Shown here: one piece after another, positions 1,494 through 20,440 of the stretch
Numbering within the stretch: position 1 is the stretch's first letter
Layout: each line of letters opens with the position of its first letter
Origin: a virus
Strand: one strand, 5' to 3'
DNA length: 41,392 nucleotides
Virus record (IMG/VR): IMGVR_UViG_3300045993_000652
Location: 1 to 41,392 of that record
Notes under the pieces: generated by a model
The model's input: the letters and a program-made list of their open reading frames with translations, nothing else
Databases searched by the model: none
Told to the model about the DNA's origin: nothing
Made by a program: the position numbers and the translations under genes

Positions 1494-2057
1494 CTACCGC
1501 AATGGCTTGGCGTTGATCCGCTGGTACTGCTCACGCTCACTCACTTTGACAAACTGCGGATCGGCGGGGTTGGGTTTCGGCGCATCCTTGGCCGGCTCTG
1601 GTTCGTGGCGAGCTTGGCGCATCAGGGCGGCGGTTGTCTCCTTGCCCATCCCGGCGGCCTTGCTCACAATGTCTTGGCTCAACTTGCGCTTACTGCCGTC
1701 TGCCTCTAGCACCAACACCAGCGACAATGACTCGATCAACTCTTCGCGGGATACCTCGATCCATTGCGGATCGTTATCATTCTGTCGCGTTGACTCGGTT
1801 GGTTCTGACGGTTCCGAACTGAGTTCTACGGCAACGGTCGGGGTCGGTCTGTGGTCGGTCTGTGGTCGGTCTACCGCATCAGACCGCCATCCCGGCGATA
1901 GTTCAGAACTATCGAGAGAAGGGACGGAAGTGGCGACATAATCACGCCACCACTGCTGCATCAGTGTTGCGAGTGAGAACCGACGCCAAGCGAGAACACC
2001 AAGCGCGTATGCGCCTGCGGCAAACGTCAGCCATGTAATGTAATCGCCTAGCGTCAT
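1494..2057 (-). CDS. Single-pass membrane protein with possible HTH-like domain
   Basis: The 187-residue product has one N-terminal membrane segment (about residues 6-25) followed by Arg-Arg, then a Ser/Pro/Thr-rich linker, then a compact helical domain at about 95-150. There the pattern SREELIESLSLVLVLE and LSQDIVSKAAGMGKETTAAL looks like a winged-helix or HTH-like fold. The C-terminal tail is charged and Pro-rich. The ribosome site is GAGG before ATG 2057. It is the last gene of the membrane cassette, directly before the terminator. A membrane-tethered DNA-binding or signalling role is inference only. Confidence 0.7.
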   Translation of the reverse strand: MTLGDYITWLTFAAGAYALGVLAWRRFSLATLMQQWWRDYVATSVPSLDSSELSPGWRSDAVDRPQTDHRPTPTVAVELSSEPSEPTESTRQNDNDPQWIEVSREELIESLSLVLVLEADGSKRKLSQDIVSKAAGMGKETTAALMRQARHEPEPAKDAPKPNPADPQFVKVSEREQYQRINAKPLR

Positions 2058-2064
2058 GACTACC

Positions 2065-2538
2065 TCATTCCTTCATCTTCCACAGCGCTTCGGGGGCTAC
2101 GGCGATGATACCACCAACAATGAGCGAGATCAAGATCGCGGGCCATACGTCAACGGTTGCGGGCGTGCCAGCGGCGGCGATCATCTGGGCTGTGGGCGTT
2201 TTGCCGATATTGCGAAACGTGGGAAACACGCCACCCGCATTGATCAGCGCATCGAGAATGAACACCGCTGCCGTGAACATCCCCGGCTTTCCGCGTAGGA
2301 TTGGACGCTCCGCAACCGTGAACACGAACTGTACCACAAACGCGGTGACGACCATTACGGCAAACGCCGTGCCAGGCTGAAGCGCTTGTACGCTCAGATA
2401 GGTGGTGTAGACCGCACCAAACCACGTTAAGAGCGATGCGATCTTGGTGCCAGTAATCGGGAATGATCGGCGGGTTGGTTGCGATAGCAATCCTTCGAGT
2501 ACCTTGTCGTCCTTCATATCCTGTGATTGTACAGCCAT
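2065..2538 (-). CDS. Multi-pass membrane protein, phage cassette
   Basis: A 157-residue protein with a basic cytoplasmic N-terminus of about 30 residues and three to four membrane segments (about 32-50, 56-75, 87-105 and 128-148). A GGAGG ribosome site precedes ATG 2538. It lies 3 bases after the HTH-tailed membrane protein and 8 bases before the 2057 gene, so all belong to one operon. No family is recognised. The loop RNIGKTPTAQMIAAAGTPAT is probably extracytoplasmic or re-entrant. Confidence 0.7.
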   Translation of the reverse strand: MAVQSQDMKDDKVLEGLLSQPTRRSFPITGTKIASLLTWFGAVYTTYLSVQALQPGTAFAVMVVTAFVVQFVFTVAERPILRGKPGMFTAAVFILDALINAGGVFPTFRNIGKTPTAQMIAAAGTPATVDVWPAILISLIVGGIIAVAPEALWKMKE

Positions 2539-2540
2539 CG

Positions 2541-3173
2541 TTAGACCTCCTTGACATACTTGCTGGCGGTTTGACGGCTCACGCCAACCGTTGACGCCGC
2601 CTGTGTAATTGACATGCCACTGTCAACCAGTGCCTTAACCTGTTGACGCTTGCCGTCAAGCACTGTTGACGGCTCGTTAACCGTCGTGTCAAGGTCGTCA
2701 ACCAGTAGCGACGGCTCGTTGACAGGGTTGACAATGGCGATGTTCACGGTTTGCGTGGTGCTTGACGGCTCGTTGACAGGCGTTGACAGCGTGGGTAACG
2801 AGCGCGGTTGGATCAGGTGCATGAGGTAGGCGGCGATTGTCACCGCAAAGCCCGCATGGAGCCATGGCCCGATACCGACAATCGCACCATTCAGATCGAG
2901 CGCCACCAGTGCGCCGAACAGCGCCGTTACGCCAATGGCGAGCCAAGTCCACCCGCCACGCCTGCCTGCGCGTGCGCCCATCACAGCGGCGATCATGGCT
3001 CCGTCAATGGCAATCATCGCCGCAACACCACCGACCGTTACCACCCACGGCAAAATACCTGTAACTTGTTCGGGCATGCGCTTGCTGATATACCATTCTG
3101 CGATTTGCAACCCTTGTGCGCCGAACAGCGCGGCAATCGGCCACTTTTCCCAATATTCGAGCGTGTCTGTCAT
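2541..3173 (-). CDS. Four-TM membrane protein with C-terminal HTH
   Basis: Start ATG 3173 is chosen for its ribosome site (GGAGACGGGG) and its ATGA overlap with the small gene upstream. A longer frame exists but overlaps that gene. The 210 residues hold about four membrane segments (12-30, 40-66, 76-96, 104-121), then a linker with three VNEPS repeats, then a resolvase/Hin-type helix-turn-helix at 176-208 (KALVDSGMSITQAASTVGVS). The architecture resembles DUF2637/SpdA-type proteins of plasmids and phages, known to me only as a family pattern. The HTH would place the protein at the membrane while touching DNA, for example host or phage DNA at the cell periphery. Confidence 0.75.
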   Translation of the reverse strand: MTDTLEYWEKWPIAALFGAQGLQIAEWYISKRMPEQVTGILPWVVTVGGVAAMIAIDGAMIAAVMGARAGRRGGWTWLAIGVTALFGALVALDLNGAIVGIGPWLHAGFAVTIAAYLMHLIQPRSLPTLSTPVNEPSSTTQTVNIAIVNPVNEPSLLVDDLDTTVNEPSTVLDGKRQQVKALVDSGMSITQAASTVGVSRQTASKYVKEV

Positions 3174-3313
3174 CCCCGTCTCCGTGTCTGCGCATCCATC
3201 GCAATCAGCGCCATCATAATCAGCATCAGCGCGACTAACTCCCAGCGACCAATTACGGCTATGGCAATCGTGCCGAGGGCGAACAAAACAATGATCAGTG
3301 TGGTGTGTTTCAC
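3170..3313 (-). CDS. 47-residue small membrane protein
   Basis: A GTG start at 3313 overlaps the stop of the upstream gene (GTGA), and the stop overlaps the ATG of the downstream gene (ATGA), so translation is coupled on both sides. The 47 residues contain two hydrophobic stretches (about 6-21 and 25-39) separated by a short charged turn (GRWE), with a basic end (TRRRG). It looks like a two-helix membrane hairpin. It could be a holin-like peptide or a subunit of the membrane cassette; context favours the latter. Confidence 0.65.
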   Translation of the reverse strand: MKHTTLIIVLFALGTIAIAVIGRWELVALMLIMMALIAMDAQTRRRG

Positions 3314-4209
3314 GGCTGCACCCCTGGCGTTGGCTGGGCATTGATCGCGCCGGGGATGTTGAGCACTTGTCCGAACGCCTTGACCAGCACCTTGCCGACC
3401 GTCACGGCATCCGAGGCGTGCTGCATTGCCTCGGCGGGGCGCTTTGGATCGAGTGCGGCGGCTCCGACAATGGCGATGCGTTCAACCTGATCTTGTGCCA
3501 GGGTCGGGATGTCGGGGCGCGCTTCGGGCGTCGGCTGTACAGCGGCAGCGGGCGGAGCCGCAACGATAGCGGGCTGCTCTGCTGGTGTGACTGGATCGGC
3601 AACAAGCGCGGGCTGGGTCGTTGCCAACCAAACGCGGGTGCCGTCGTCTAATTCGAGTGAGCCGTTGTCTAACTGCCGATACTTGCGCCCACCAACCGCC
3701 AAACCATCATACTGCCCTGGCGCCCACGAGCCAAGCGCGCTATCCGGCAGCGTTTGATCATAGGTGGCGGTCTGCGGTAGTGCAATTGGTTGGGGCTGCT
3801 GCGGGCGCTGTGCGGGCTGTGGCTGCGCCGTAATCACAATGTTGGGCATTGGGGCAGCACCCTGCTCTGCGGGCTGCGTGGCGCTGTCGGCGGGCTGGTG
3901 GTAGTTTAGCCACGCCATCGCTGATAGCGTGCCAATCACGGCCACCACCAGGCCGAACGCGATCCAACTCAGCGCCGCGTCAATGGCCCGGCGTGCTGGC
4001 GTGTGAGCGCGGGCGGGGCGCGACTTCGGCGCACTGAGTTGGTTGTCATACGCGGCAGTGATGGCGGCGTGTGCCGTGTCCTCGCTGCCGCCTTGTGCGA
4101 TGTAGTTGCCGAGTGCCACAGCAGCGCGCTCGACATCGTTGCGTAGGCCGTAGCGCACGTATTCGGACAGGTACGATTGGCGGTCGATCTCTGCTTTTTG
4201 CTTTGCCAT
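3310..4209 (-). CDS. Single-pass membrane protein with Pro/Gln/Ala-rich linkers
   Basis: The start at ATG 4209 has a good ribosome site (AGGAGCGAAACA). The 299 residues form a helical cytoplasmic N-terminus (1-60), one membrane segment (about 78-98), a long Gln/Pro/Ala-rich stretch, a small beta domain near 135-195 (pattern YDGLAVGGRKYRQLDNGSL), another Ala/Pro linker and a C-terminal helix rich in Asp and Val. The layout suggests a cell-wall-spanning protein with an external module. It is the first of five consecutive membrane genes. Function unknown. Confidence 0.7.
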   Translation of the reverse strand: MAKQKAEIDRQSYLSEYVRYGLRNDVERAAVALGNYIAQGGSEDTAHAAITAAYDNQLSAPKSRPARAHTPARRAIDAALSWIAFGLVVAVIGTLSAMAWLNYHQPADSATQPAEQGAAPMPNIVITAQPQPAQRPQQPQPIALPQTATYDQTLPDSALGSWAPGQYDGLAVGGRKYRQLDNGSLELDDGTRVWLATTQPALVADPVTPAEQPAIVAAPPAAAVQPTPEARPDIPTLAQDQVERIAIVGAAALDPKRPAEAMQHASDAVTVGKVLVKAFGQVLNIPGAINAQPTPGVQP

Positions 4210-4324: not shown

Positions 4325-4933
4325 CTATCCGCCGCGCTTGCCGCGATATTGATCCGTGCGCCATTTGTGAGTAATAATGCCTGCGTGCCACCGCTTGTCA
4401 TCATCGTAATAGTCGTCTTCCGATGGACAGGTGAGCCCGCCACAAAACTCCATGCCATGCTCGAAATACTCTAGCGAAAATGTTACCGTAGGAAACTGCT
4501 TTGCCAACGCCACGATGATGCTTTCCGACGGACTCCAGGCGGTTTGATAGGTCAAGCATGGACTATCATAATCGCGCCGCTTGACCTCGTAGGCTTCCCA
4601 CTTCGTCCCCCATGCTCGCGTACACCACTCATAGCCACCAGAGTTATAGCCGTCTTTGTCGGTTCCCCATTTGGCGCGATAGGTGGCACGACCGGCATCC
4701 CGCGCCGCAACCTGCGCAGTCCACTCAGGCGTATCGCGGGCGATACTGTAATCAAGATCGGGGATCATAAGTTTATGATCGTTGTCCATGTCCTTATACG
4801 GCGATGGATACGGCAACAACCGACGAAAATCAAAGATTGGCGGATCTTCCGTTGCGCCAATAAACGCCAATACGGCTTCAATGTCCTCTTGTGTGCCATT
4901 GAAATACAAATCGTTTTCAACGTGGTTTGGCAT
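4325..4933 (-). CDS. YubB/Api92-like ferredoxin-fold protein
   Basis: The 202-residue protein opens with MPNHVENDLYFNGTQEDI, the signature start of the YubB/Api92-like family (DUF1281-type, ferredoxin-like fold), found on conjugative plasmids and phages. An acidic and Trp-rich middle (KWGTDKDGYNSGGYEWC) and a C-terminal acidic cluster (SEDDYYDDDKRW) follow. The length suits the family. The biochemical role of the family is not established as far as I know. The ribosome site is GAGGA close to ATG 4933. It lies between the small-gene trio and the membrane cassette, in the same leftward operon. Confidence 0.8.
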   Translation of the reverse strand: MPNHVENDLYFNGTQEDIEAVLAFIGATEDPPIFDFRRLLPYPSPYKDMDNDHKLMIPDLDYSIARDTPEWTAQVAARDAGRATYRAKWGTDKDGYNSGGYEWCTRAWGTKWEAYEVKRRDYDSPCLTYQTAWSPSESIIVALAKQFPTVTFSLEYFEHGMEFCGGLTCPSEDDYYDDDKRWHAGIITHKWRTDQYRGKRGG

Positions 4934-5109
4934 TCCTCATCCCTTCCCTCAGCGCAGTCATCTGCGCAGTTTAGAACCGCTTCTGATCACCCCTGACGGC
5001 TGCCAACCCGCCCTACTGCGCTCTCATCCAGTCCCGCCACTCTTCGAGCAAGAAGGGTAGATGGCGTTGTGATGCCTTAAACATTGGGCTGATCTGTTTC
5101 GTTGCGCAG

Positions 5110-5343
5110 TTACGGATAAAATACCTGCTGAAACGTTTCAATATCCGCACCATCCTGCCACTCCATATACACCTCGGTTGCTTGCCGGTGTTGTTGTGCA
5201 TAGGTTTTTGCGTAGCGGATAGCTGATTGTTTTGTTCGATATTCCTTGATAACTTTTGGCGTTTTACCGAACCAATACGGGATGCTGTGCAACTCTTCGG
5301 TTTGGTCAACCGGATAGACCAGCACCTCATATATTTTAATCAT
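5110..5343 (-). CDS. Small soluble phage protein
   Basis: A 77-residue protein with ribosome site GGAGGGAAAGCAGG before ATG 5343. The first 30 residues look like beta strands rich in Tyr and Val; a basic helix (RTKQSAIRYAKTYAQQHRQ) follows, then a strand and an acidic tail. The pattern resembles small beta-alpha-beta accessory proteins of phages. It overlaps the upstream gene by 8 bases. The 176 bases after it, to the 4933 gene, hold no convincing gene. Function unknown. Confidence 0.6.
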   Translation of the reverse strand: MIKIYEVLVYPVDQTEELHSIPYWFGKTPKVIKEYRTKQSAIRYAKTYAQQHRQATEVYMEWQDGADIETFQQVFYP

Positions 5344-8344: not shown

Positions 8345-9357
8345 ACGGATAGCTCCAGACTATGCTGCTCGTGGCGGGTTGGCTTGAGGCAGCTTGGCGA
8401 AAACCAGATACATTCCCGAAAGCGATTGACGGCGCTGACGATGTCTTGTTGATAGCCCTTGCGTGCGGTGTAGCGCAGCGTCTCCCAGTCATCGGGCACG
8501 CTACGCCCATCTTCATAGCCGCAAACTGCGATTCTCAGCAGCGGATCGTTGCCGTTTTCGGTTGCCCATGCCCAGACATCCGCCGCAATCGTTTTGTCGG
8601 CATTGCCGCCCGCGCTGTACTCTTGACTTCCTTCGCCATAGGGCGGATCAAGTAAGATCGCCGTCAGACCGTGGCGGGTTGTGACACTTGGCGTACACAC
8701 GCGCTGCCAATCGCCACACGCCACACGGGCCGTGCGGAGGGCATCGTACAGGCGTTGCATATAGCCGTGCAGATGCTCACTGATAGCGGTGCGGGTTTCA
8801 CCCTGCCCCGCGTCGCCTACGTGCGGAAGCTTCCGATTGACACCCCGCCCCGCGTTGCCTACGTGCGGAAGCTTCCGATTGACACCCCGCCCCGCGTTGC
8901 CCCTGATATTCACCAGCGCCCCATCCTCAATACTCCACGGCCCCTCACCACTGCACCAGCCCGTACCAATCCAGCAGCACGCGCCCCAACACCACCAGCC
9001 CGCGATCTTGGCGTCAAACCAGTCAGGGTCGGCTTCCAATTTGGCGCGGAGTGTGCCTTCCTGTTTCAGTAGCCACACATGGCGCGCAAACAGATCAATC
9101 TCGTTGACCGGCCAATCAACAAACCGCGCAACGCTGTCAGGATCGGCGGCAACGGCGCGCCAGAAGTTTGCAATAAAGCCGTCGAGGTCGTTCAGTGTGA
9201 CGACGGGCGGCAATGCGGGCGCACCGAGGATTGAACTAGCGGAGCCACAGAACGGATCAACAAAGTTTCTGACACTGCCGAAGCGCCGCCAGATCGCGGG
9301 CATAATGGCGGATTTACCGCCGAATTGCGGGTATGGCGCTTTGATTGGCTGCATCAC
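8341..9357 (-). CDS. Dam-type DNA adenine methylase (D12 class)
   Basis: A 338-residue alpha-class N6-adenine methyltransferase. Motif X (YPQFGGKS) is at 9-16, the SAM-binding DPFCGSAS at 34-41 and the catalytic DPPYG at 237-241, in the order typical of Dam/D12 enzymes, which often act on GATC. Residues 153-180 contain two identical 14-residue repeats (GNAGRGVNRKLPHV) from a 42-bp DNA duplication in the insert region between target-recognition and catalytic parts. The start is GTG 9357, or ATG 9354, overlapping the upstream stop. Orphan enzyme; no nuclease partner. Confidence 0.9.
   Translation of the reverse strand: MMQPIKAPYPQFGGKSAIMPAIWRRFGSVRNFVDPFCGSASSILGAPALPPVVTLNDLDGFIANFWRAVAADPDSVARFVDWPVNEIDLFARHVWLLKQEGTLRAKLEADPDWFDAKIAGWWCWGACCWIGTGWCSGEGPWSIEDGALVNIRGNAGRGVNRKLPHVGNAGRGVNRKLPHVGDAGQGETRTAISEHLHGYMQRLYDALRTARVACGDWQRVCTPSVTTRHGLTAILLDPPYGEGSQEYSAGGNADKTIAADVWAWATENGNDPLLRIAVCGYEDGRSVPDDWETLRYTARKGYQQDIVSAVNRFRECIWFSPSCLKPTRHEQHSLELSV
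8816..8900. repeat. 42-bp tandem repeat inside the methylase gene
   Basis: Two perfect 42-bp copies (8816-8857, 8858-8899) with a degenerate partial copy before them. Each copy contains the 12-bp palindrome CGGAAGCTTCCG. The unit is a multiple of three, so changes in copy number keep the methylase frame. Confidence 0.9.
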
Positions 9358-12744: not shown

Positions 12745-13036
12745 GGCGTTGACTCCTGTGTGACTACCTGTGTGACTACCTTTTGTGGAGGTCGTCACCA
12801 TTTTCTTAGCGTCCTAATGCCCTGAAAAGCCCTGTGACTACCTTGACTACCTAAATGACATCATTAGCGCGAAACACACCACCCTACTCGCCCCTCTATA
12901 TAGATCTAGATCTATCTAATCTATATAGAGAGGTAGTCACGGTAGTCACACTCTATAAAACATGGCATCTGTATGCCCTAAAACCTGTGACTACCTGTGT
13001 GACTACCTACCTAAAAGGTAGTCACGAGGTAGTCAC
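12745..13036. repeat. Iteron cluster, putative replication origin
   Basis: Nine exact copies of the 9-mer GTGACTACC: five forward (12760, 12772, 12834, 12987, 12999) and four reversed (12932, 12941, 13017, 13028). One-mismatch copies lie at 12843 and 12790. Adjacent copies are 9 to 12 bp apart, about one helical turn, as in iteron origins. The middle (12880-12960) is AT-rich. The cluster separates the helicase gene from the zinc-ribbon gene and is the only large non-coding stretch of the early operon. The last iteron reaches into the helicase stop codon. Confidence 0.75.
12894..12930. repeat. AT-rich 12-bp inverted repeat in the origin
   Basis: CTCTATATAGAT (12894-12905) and its complement (12919-12930) surround a 13-bp core rich in A and T. 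It lies between the forward and reversed iterons and directly before the tandem pair at 12932-12949. It is a plausible unwinding or cruciform site. Confidence 0.7.
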
Positions 13037-14241
13037 GTATGCTTTAATACAAGCCCTGACCACCGCTTACCAGTGCGAGTGTGTACTTTTTTAACCCCCA
13101 GCGCCGCCAATGCTCGCGCCACTTCCATTGCTTGCGCTCGTTCTGAGCCGTGCAAGCGGTGGCCTTTATTGGCCAGATGTTCGAGTACGTCACCCATCGT
13201 GAGGGTGTCATTCCCGTCATGTGTAATCGTGAAATATTGCTGCACCCAATCCTCGATTGGGTTTTCGAGTTCATAGCGTTTGTTGATAGCCATCTGCATG
13301 GCTTTCTCTTCGGGGGTTAGTTCTGGCATCAAGCCATCTTCGCGGTAGTGGTGGTAGACCTGTGCCCACAACTGATCCCGGTCAATCTCGCGATAGCTCC
13401 AATCAATTGCGGAGATGTAGCAGATCATGAAGCGGCGTGATCCGGTTTCGTCAGCTAAAAAGCCGCTGCTAGAGTTGTTGATTGTGCCAATCAGGGAACA
13501 GATCGCCGTCTTGCTAATATCGTTGCGCCCGTAGGCTTTGCGAACGGTAACGGTATGCTTCGTGATAAACGCCTTGAGCGCCGATACATCAGCTTTACGA
13601 GTGGTAGCGTCGAGCTCCGAAACCTCCCAGATCAGTTTTGTCATCAACCGAATGTCGCAATCTTTGTCCTGAGGATTGATCGGCCCTTCGATGTGCCAGG
13701 CGTCATGCGGTGATAGCCAGCGCGCCAACAGGCTTTTGCCAATGCCCTGCGGGCCATCCAGCACCCACATGGGGTTTTGTCGGGCGTCTAATGCCTTGGC
13801 AATCACGCCAATCATCCAGCGACCGAGATACACGGCATGGATCGGGGTTCTTCGACCATCGGCATACTCCACGATCCCGCTATCACTCTTGAGTTTGGTA
13901 GCAAGCTGTGTAATCCGATCAACGCCATCCCACCTGCCCGCCAAGCTGTTGAAATAATCTTTCATTGGGTGGTAGGCGTTGCGCTTGGCTTCAGTGATAT
14001 AGGCGTCTTGCATGGCGGTAACGTACTTGCGAACCCCGCGATCAAACATCTGGGTACGAATCTCTGATGCGATTGCATCGCTGAGTACCGTACCGAGATG
14101 GTTAACCTCGATACTGTCATCGCACAAATTCATGCGAAAGTGATAGCCGAGTTCGCGGAGCGCCTCGATCCAGAGTTGCGATTGCAGTAGATCGGGTTCA
14201 ACCTTGACGCCCGCTTTTTTCAGTTCATCTTCTTTACTCAT
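13033..14241 (-). CDS. VapE-like replicative helicase (SF3/AAA+)
   Basis: A 402-residue ATPase of the virulence-associated-E type, used by phages and satellites as replicative helicase with an archaeo-eukaryotic primase. Walker A is GPQGIGKS at 163-170; Walker B is LIWEVSEL at 203-210; the sensor region is SLIGTINNSSSGFLADETGS, with an arginine pair (SRRF). The N-terminus has a small all-alpha domain, and the C-terminus (310-400) looks like a winged helix that could bind the iterons. ATG 14241 overlaps the primase stop. Confidence 0.9.
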   Translation of the reverse strand: MSKEDELKKAGVKVEPDLLQSQLWIEALRELGYHFRMNLCDDSIEVNHLGTVLSDAIASEIRTQMFDRGVRKYVTAMQDAYITEAKRNAYHPMKDYFNSLAGRWDGVDRITQLATKLKSDSGIVEYADGRRTPIHAVYLGRWMIGVIAKALDARQNPMWVLDGPQGIGKSLLARWLSPHDAWHIEGPINPQDKDCDIRLMTKLIWEVSELDATTRKADVSALKAFITKHTVTVRKAYGRNDISKTAICSLIGTINNSSSGFLADETGSRRFMICYISAIDWSYREIDRDQLWAQVYHHYREDGLMPELTPEEKAMQMAINKRYELENPIEDWVQQYFTITHDGNDTLTMGDVLEHLANKGHRLHGSERAQAMEVARALAALGVKKVHTRTGKRWSGLVLKHT

Positions 14242-19080: not shown

Positions 19081-19117
19081 TGCTGTGTCTATTGTAGCAT
19101 ATGGTAGAATGGCATCG

Positions 19118-19193
19118 CCACGATGGAGAGCATGGCGGCTCACTCGGTTTCCAGCCGGGCAACGGTCGGTTCAATTCCGATCTTCGTGGCCCA
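19118..19193 (+). tRNA. tRNA-Gly(UCC)-like gene with unusual acceptor stem
   Basis: Seventy-six bases fold as a cloverleaf: acceptor CCACGATG/CTTCGTGG (eight positions, one T-T mismatch), GA, D-stem GAGC/GCTC with loop ATGGCG, anticodon stem CTCGG/CCGGG with loop TTTCCAG (anticodon UCC, reads GGA and other Gly codons), variable CAACG, T-stem GTCGG/CCGAT with loop TTCAATT, discriminator C and an encoded CCA. The 8+5 acceptor-T helix is one base pair longer than usual. A terminator hairpin follows at once. It could be a tRNA mimic rather than a working tRNA. Confidence 0.6.
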
Positions 19194-19286: not shown

Positions 19287-19336
19287 GCCTCCTGAGCTAG
19301 TGATCTATCACTGGTTCGGGAGGCGTTTTGTCTTTT
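19287..19336 (+). terminator. Leader terminator overlapping the endolysin start
   Basis: GCCTCC (19287-19292) pairs with GGAGGC (19319-19324), with an inner stem CTAGTGA/TCACTGG around a TCTA loop. The T-run GTTTTGTCTTTT follows. The RNA made from 19266 would end here unless antitermination occurs. The endolysin TTG (19328) sits in the T-run, and its ribosome site is the right arm of the hairpin. Confidence 0.7.
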
Positions 19337-20440
19337 CAGAATCTCAATCTGCACTTCCCCACGGTTGACGCATTCCGCGCATGGCTGGCGACCTGCCCGC
19401 CGCTGCGTGGTTGGAAGCCGATTGGATCGGTTTTTCACAACACGTATAGCCCCAACGAATCGCAATGGCGTGGGCGGGCGAGCATGCTGAGCATGCAGCG
19501 CTTCTACGAAGCAAAGGGCTGGACGACCGGCCCGCATTTGTACTTGGCGTCGGGTACGATGGCAGATGGGATTTTCGTCATGTGCCCGCCGTGGCTGGAG
19601 GGCATTCACGCAGGCCCATGCAACGCCACGCGCTGGGGGCTGGAGGTCGTTGGGGACTTTGCCGCGCGCCCGATGTCGCACGATCAACTCGTCCTGCTCT
19701 CAGAAGCCGCCGCCGCGCTCCATGATTGGCAGCATCTCGGCGCGGATATTGTGGCGCATCGGGATTGTATGCTCGGTCGCACATGTCCCGGCGATGCGGC
19801 CTATGCTCAAAAAGCAGACATTCAAGCACTGCTTGCTTTTGCGCTGAACGCCAGATCCTCGCCCATCCCCTACACCGCAGACAGTCCCCTGCTCGCTGCT
19901 CCCCACGCCTCGGCCTTGACGTTCAGCGCCCGCAATACCAACTATGATCAAGTCGCGGTCGATACCATTACGCAGGCGTACTGGGCACAAGCGCGTGCGG
20001 TCGGGCTTGATCCGATCTTGTGCTTCGCCCAGTGTTTGCACGAGACGGGAAATTTGAATAGCTGGTGGTGCGCCCGGCCTCGCAGGAATCCCGCTGGCAT
20101 TGGGGTTACGGGTGAAACCTCCACCGAACCTCGACCCGCGCCATTCTGGGCACAGCGCAACGAAGGGCTGTGGGTCAAGGGCTTCAGCTTTCCAACGTGG
20201 GTGCATGACGCCATCCCGGCCCATCTGGGCAGGCTGCTGGGATATGCCTTAAAGCCAGGCGATATGAGCGCAACCCAGTGGCAATGCTATAGCAAGGCGA
20301 TGGAGATCAAGCCGCTACCGACCGCCATACTCGGCTGTGCGCCGACGTTGCGCGGCTTAGGCGGCACATGGGCAGTTCCTGGCACGGCCTACGCGCAAGC
20401 CGTGGCAAACAAAGCCAACAAACTCATAGGAGCATCATGA
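19328..20440 (+). CDS. Two-domain endolysin (amidase plus glucosaminidase-like)
   Basis: A 370-residue cell-wall hydrolase. The N-terminal domain is N-acetylmuramoyl-L-alanine amidase (Amidase_2/T7 lysozyme fold), with zinc ligands His37, His144 and Cys153 (VFHNT, VAHRD, GRTCPGD). The C-terminal half (205-360) carries LHETGNLNSW with a likely catalytic Glu239 and RNPAGIGVTGE, like beta-N-acetylglucosaminidase domains. The TTG start at 19328 has a GGGAGG site. No signal peptide is seen, so export would need a holin. First gene of the late operon. Confidence 0.92.
   Translation: MSFQNLNLHFPTVDAFRAWLATCPPLRGWKPIGSVFHNTYSPNESQWRGRASMLSMQRFYEAKGWTTGPHLYLASGTMADGIFVMCPPWLEGIHAGPCNATRWGLEVVGDFAARPMSHDQLVLLSEAAAALHDWQHLGADIVAHRDCMLGRTCPGDAAYAQKADIQALLAFALNARSSPIPYTADSPLLAAPHASALTFSARNTNYDQVAVDTITQAYWAQARAVGLDPILCFAQCLHETGNLNSWWCARPRRNPAGIGVTGETSTEPRPAPFWAQRNEGLWVKGFSFPTWVHDAIPAHLGRLLGYALKPGDMSATQWQCYSKAMEIKPLPTAILGCAPTLRGLGGTWAVPGTAYAQAVANKANKLIGAS

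Follow-up and report, generated by a model that had tools for sequence, protein, structure and literature searches.

Can a direct tie between DNA and membrane position a replicon? This is an old question, posed with the replicon model. The question has lately been revived by RocS of Streptococcus pneumoniae, a single protein that drives segregation with its membrane anchor and its domain for DNA binding; the model proposed is DNA-membrane tethering, and plasmid Par is discussed alongside (PMC11500499). SpdB2 of the Streptomyces plasmid pSVH1 is an integral membrane protein that oligomerises and binds double-stranded (ds) DNA (PMC4170104); p16.7 and p1 of phage phi29, both membrane proteins, hold the replication of phage DNA at the membrane (PMC4974454); and the O protein of phage lambda binds iterons that lie inside its own coding sequence, at ori lambda (PMC4488673). 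Here we consider a cassette of five successive open reading frames (ORFs) in a 41,392-base IMG/VR virus record (IMGVR_UViG_3300045993_000652; the whole of this stretch is called the window), at positions 1494-4209. One of the five, g210, combines a predicted membrane protein, a helix-turn-helix (HTH) domain and a dense array of short motifs in a single gene, and may belong to a unit that tethers the phage's own DNA to the membrane.

The g210 gene (2541-3173, minus strand; genes of the cassette are named by the length of their products) would encode a 210-residue membrane protein with four transmembrane (TM) helices, a flexible linker and, at the C-terminus, an HTH of resolvase type. This HTH, noted in the original prediction, scores above the Pfam cut-off (HTH_7 at residues 177-202; E 3e-5, 24.5 versus 23.8 bits) and is seen again in the AlphaFold2 model, run with three sequences. 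In that model four helices (10-32, 41-67, 73-94 and 102-121) are followed by a linker without structure (122-168) and then by the HTH, made of three helices (169-209), for which block values of the predicted local distance difference test (pLDDT) are 75-83. The three VNEPS repeats noted at the outset are present as well, encoded by a repeated GACGGCTCGTT element. For all cassette proteins, TM topology was taken from hydropathy plus low-confidence models.

Where g210 encodes its linker and HTH, 15 copies of TTGAC lie within 237 bp (2551-2787; 11 on the plus strand, 4 on the minus strand), a putative binding array. No other 5-mer in the window forms so extreme a cluster (P about 10^-9 after correction for all 5-mers and positions). 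Because coding repeats might by themselves yield such a cluster, the protein was recoded 20,000 times using the phage's own codon usage; the mean was 2.4 copies and the maximum 8, against the 15 observed. The copies occupy all three reading frames, the distances between them follow a period near 10.6 bp (R 0.73, P about 5e-5 versus random placement), and the base that follows is a purine in every copy (15/15 in g210, 24/24 across this phage and the two relatives described below). Cluster P values derive from Poisson and codon-usage nulls, with motif length picked by scanning k = 5 and 6. In a motif-blind version of the test, g210 ranks first among the genes of the window. Two other sources of the cluster were considered and rejected: the VNEPS protein repeats, by the reading-frame and synonymous-codon tests, and -35 boxes, as there are no promoter-like sites within the array.

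Firm homologues of g210 (45-49% identity) were found in two related IMG/VR phages: at 8452-9108 of L011, a locus of the 40.5-kb contig G001 (46% identity; the terminases of G001 and the window are 79% identical), and at 4546-5190 of a third contig, L104. Their HTH_7 scores fall slightly under the Pfam cut-off. GTTGAC is in excess in both genes despite different linkers (5 versus 0.56 expected in L011, P<5e-5; 4 versus 0.51 in L104, P 0.00075), two results that are not independent because G001 and L104 are closely related. In the motif-blind test the homologue ranks first among the G001 genes tested, with overlapping motifs, and its top hexamer is GTTGAC. In G001 the g210 homologue is followed by a 110-residue gene, a multi-TM protein of 174 residues and a single-TM protein of 162 residues; L104 has the same order, minus the 110-residue gene. 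For g299 and g47, the first two genes of the cassette, no convincing match was found in G001. The conserved unit is a three-gene core of g210, a g157-like multi-TM protein and a g187-like single-TM protein, rather than the five-gene unit originally supposed.

The other two core genes follow g210 on the minus strand. Gene g157 (2065-2538) would encode a multi-TM membrane protein of 157 residues, with about three or four TM segments by hydropathy and no convincing Pfam or PHROG family. Gene g187 (1494-2057; 187 residues) appears to specify a single N-terminal membrane helix, a disordered middle and a C-terminal helical part: AlphaFold2 models the helix at 3-44 with confidence and places most of the C-terminal part below pLDDT 50. 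That g187 is equivalent to the single-TM proteins of the relatives is argued from where the gene lies, from the type of anchor and from weak similarity at the C-terminus (E 0.002 with the 162-residue L011 protein in pairwise BLASTP). The single-TM proteins of G001 and L104 themselves have anchors that are 73% identical over 44 residues and C-terminal parts that are unrelated. A by-eye idea that the g187 C-terminus is FtsK-gamma-like was dropped, as neither Pfam nor AlphaFold2 gave support.

Motif clusters also occur in the single-TM genes, and were surveyed in all loci collected for the analysis. In L104 the gene of the 154-residue relative of g187 holds ten of the 16 GGAAA copies of its locus within 120 bp of the stretch past the anchor, five per strand; no other 5-mer cluster in the locus is as strong (corrected P about 10^-14; 10 versus 1.9 under synonymous recoding). 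The linker of g187 carries a suggestive group, AGACCG four times or GACCG five times, mostly 10-11 bp apart (1835-1886; TRF reports an 11-bp unit at 1842-1872), with a corrected genome-wide P of about 0.02 at k=6 and four copies versus 0.31 under recoding, the motif having been selected after inspection. In the G001 gene an ATACC group, likewise selected after inspection, is not significant genome-wide. The survey gave one further strong case in a TM gene: an Anaerolineae contig with terL (L018, 1036-2103) encodes a four-TM protein with a long linker and no similarity to g210, and has 16 TGGAA/TTCCA copies in the linker-coding part (3.8 expected under recoding, maximum 10). Clusters turned up in non-membrane ORFs too, including the replication-protein gene of G001.

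One way to understand these features is to regard the core as a unit by which the phage tethers its own DNA to the membrane, acting through sites inside its own gene or genes. This is the reading that best fits the evidence, namely a membrane HTH protein together with an array unexplained by protein sequence; we hold it with slightly more doubt than belief. The presence of sites on both strands, phased with the helix, suggests a protein that recognises duplex DNA; g210 is suggested as the ligand because the gene that holds the array itself encodes a DNA-binding protein, as with lambda O (iterons in a protein's own gene have precedents there, PMC4488673, and in the replication-protein gene of G001, with AATCCAC); and the complex would become a tether because g210 has a predicted membrane part. 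From this we infer a membrane topology, the binding of the array by the HTH, autoregulation and a biological role, as follows. Four helices would hold g210 in the membrane, with the HTH extending on its flexible linker into the cytoplasm; the HTH would bind the TTGAC/GTTGACR array in the g210 gene; and each copy of the phage genome that carries the gene would be anchored to the membrane at that locus. Binding within the operon would also restrict synthesis of the cassette proteins. The g187-like protein could add a second anchor, of one helix, with a C-terminal part and a DNA motif that can be exchanged for others. The phage might gain by organising its replication or by keeping genome copies apart.

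Several observations weigh against the tethering reading. The TM part of the g210 model has low confidence. The array is far weaker in the homologues than in g210, and the motif-blind P for L104 is 0.16. The core was found in just three phages, two of them (G001 and L104) closely related, and g157 is equated with the 174-residue (L011) and 170-residue (L104) multi-TM proteins by position and topology alone. For g187, once thought a possible second DNA binder, no HTH family appears even at E<=10 and no DNA-binding domain is recognised by the libraries or in the AlphaFold2 model; no HTH was detectable in its relatives or, with Pfam, in the L018 protein, and the L018 array shows no phasing. Such a unit is not clearly required for segregation or for replication, because the phage encodes an integrase and has a candidate origin elsewhere. 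Of the original proposal, membrane tethering is the part that fits the evidence best, with a core of three genes and no support for DNA binding by g187.

A broader perspective, which we consider doubtful, supposes a motor-free DNA-positioning system of Chloroflexota phages, made of membrane proteins with centromere-like arrays written into their own genes. The TTGAC array has the dense short repeats of an iteron-type partition centromere, and no NTPase (nucleoside triphosphatase) motor of the ParA, ParM or TubZ families was found among the cassette and neighbouring proteins scanned. If this were so, anchor, DNA-binding part and target site would move and be swapped as one unit, and the arrays would be encoded through synonymous-codon choice and flexible-linker residues.

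A second way to account for the array is to make g210 a membrane-bound autoregulator, which senses at the membrane and binds the sites in its gene just to repress or time its own operon, with no tethering. We judge this improbable. The array does lie directly 5' of the g157 and g187 starts in the same operon, and the HTH is of a regulator-like type; however, 15 sites over 237 bp of coding DNA exceed the need of a simple operator, and the array is distant from the promoter at 5777-5750 and has no promoter-like site within it.

Somewhat less probable still is a replication organiser of the phi29 p16.7/p1 kind, in which, in lytic growth, the cassette proteins recruit the replicating phage genome, along with its machinery, to the membrane and the array is an accessory origin element. 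Anchoring of replication by membrane proteins has its example in phi29 (PMC4974454), and origin iterons within genes are known in lambda and seen in G001. On the other side, the strongest iteron group of the window by 6-mers lies elsewhere, at 12750-13037 beside the helicase gene, and the cassette adjoins the tail end some 10 kb away.

The origin-like arrays deserve description in their own right. In that of the window, TGTGACTACCT / AGGTAGTCACG units of 11-12 bp recur, in either orientation, within a mostly non-coding stretch between a 220-residue ORF and the helicase gene; it is a candidate replication origin, and helicase and primase genes accompany it at 12.7-15.2 kb. In G001 (L011 1677-1873), 13 ATCCAC (AATCCAC) repeats on both strands lie inside a 655-residue replication-type ORF, just past a winged-helix stretch recognised by eye: an origin-like array within its own gene. 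At L005 3875-4050, 11 copies of CGGACA, on both strands, lie directly 3' of a 378-residue ORF (an AAA-type replication protein by eye) and are likely origin iterons.

A further scenario gives the cassette an Spd-like role, moving or positioning DNA for cell-to-cell passage or blocking incoming DNA that has matching sites; this seems to us quite unlikely. SpdB of plasmid pIJ101 and gp25 of phage phiC31 share by eye the layout of TM segments, linker and helical tail, and hhalign aligns SpdB with g210 over the TM2 region with E 0.0098 and 29% identity (49 columns), but with a probability of 4%; neither SpdB nor gp25 is significantly similar to g210. Scans of a subset of the window's ORFs revealed no FtsK/TraB-like ATPase and no TraB-like partner for g210. 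Nothing found favours in particular either superinfection exclusion or conjugation-like transfer, both of which had been put forward. Equally unlikely are lysis or ordinary accessory membrane genes, with g47 and g157 holin-like and the arrays by-products of repeated linkers: small membrane proteins adjoining tail genes and the VNEPS repeats would suit this, but an endolysin-like amidase gene lies elsewhere (19328-20440) and the arrays, in all frames and on both strands, beat all or nearly all synonymous recodings, which largely refutes the by-product explanation.

All five ORFs of the cassette, of 299, 47, 210, 157 and 187 residues, are where the original prediction placed them, and four of the products (g299, g47, g210 and g157) look like membrane proteins, as it held; g187 has no hydropathy segment above the cut-off, yet has its confident N-terminal helix. 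Upstream of g210, g299 (3310-4209, minus strand) has one TM by hydropathy followed by a Pro-rich part, and g47 (3170-3313, minus strand, GTG start) one or two; neither was found in the relatives. The g299, g47 and g210 ORFs overlap start-to-stop by 4 bases each. The cassette of the window and the core of both relatives occupy the same position, adjoining the tail genes, with which they are convergent in the window and G001. The minus-strand run ends, as expected, in an intrinsic-terminator-like hairpin (1471-1451), and begins 3' of a sigma-70 promoter at 5777-5750 that matches the consensus at 12 of 12 positions. This promoter had been called dedicated to the cassette; it is not, because four other small ORFs (5700-4325) precede g299 in the run. 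One of these, at 4325-4933, encodes an Api92-like protein with a DUF1281_C domain (E 3.8e-10). A second 12/12 sigma-70 promoter, 3' of the cassette terminator at 1393-1420, has GTGCTTGACA in common with the first and reads into a 129-residue ORF (1012-1401), the true start of which must then be near 1350.

Terminase, portal, capsid, helicase, primase and integrase genes were detected in the window. Its terminase is most similar to those of two further viral contigs (79% and 76% identity); in bacterial genomes the best matches are headed by Anaerolineae and also take in Chloroflexales contigs (42-45% identity), so that the host is likely a member of the Chloroflexota. A tRNA-Gly(tcc) gene (19115-19193) adjoins the amidase-type endolysin gene, and a 42-bp tandem repeat of 2.5 copies (8799-8901), encoding repeated GNAGRGVNRKLPHV, lies within a 338-residue ORF that by eye is a DNA adenine methyltransferase.

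Wider searches returned little. A profile scan of genomes with g210 was empty, and single-protein IMG/VR scans with g299, g157 and g210 gave no relatives; among phage and plasmid records the same queries found nothing except an HTH-region match in Paenibacillus phage PG1. In searches of 158 and 400 Chloroflexota genomes there were weak matches alone: the ORFs at the two loci inspected, L099 and L101, are unrelated, and the other matches span just a TM stretch or the HTH. No relatives of g299 were found in viral contigs or phage records, and no family above cut-off for g47 in profile scans. DUF2637 (PF10935) had no profile match in the window or G001 and was absent at E<=1 for g210, with a profile that lacked a positive control and was also empty above cut-off in control genomes and a 149-genome sample. 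In the open-access literature searched we found no account of a DNA-binding protein that is anchored in the membrane and has a site array in its own gene. With membrane anchor, HTH and candidate target array joined in a single small phage gene, the question of replicon positioning would become directly testable in a simple host; and short-motif arrays in genes, compared with synonymous recoding, offer a homology-free search criterion for candidate DNA-binding proteins and their sites.

Set beside known systems, g210 is nearest in kind to SpdB2 among experimentally studied proteins: SpdB2 is a membrane protein that binds dsDNA, and g210 has predicted TM helices and a predicted HTH. A point of difference is that the binding by SpdB2 is reported to be non-specific. 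The pIJ101 SpdB resembles g210 by eye in its several hydrophobic stretches, long linker and helical tail, and has a W..V...DG..A..R stretch similar to one in g210, but its gene has no strong motif cluster. The best Foldseek match of the g210 model is phiC31 gp25, an actinophage hypothetical protein (201 columns, E 0.053, low TM-scores, 18% identity), which by eye has several TM segments, an acidic Pro-rich linker and an HTH-like tail; unlike g210 it has no Pfam HTH, the profile comparison is not significant (hhalign E 0.2 over 21 HTH columns), and in its gene GAGCC is clustered weakly, where the EP repeats are encoded. Because neither sequence nor fold comparison is significant, g210 is not assigned to the SpdB or gp25 family. 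The anchors and domains of phi29 p16.7 and p1 differ from those of g210, p16.7 binding terminal protein and single-stranded DNA, and we know of no array in the p16.7 gene. Lambda O differs as a soluble replication initiator with four 19-bp iterons and no membrane domain. RocS, in the section of the source used here, differs in its amphipathic-helix anchor, its N-terminal DNA-binding domain and its chromosomal location, and that section describes no in-gene site array. The original statement that no named system has this composition holds in our searches, but the parts have precedents: in SpdB2, in p16.7, in RocS and in the architecture of gp25.
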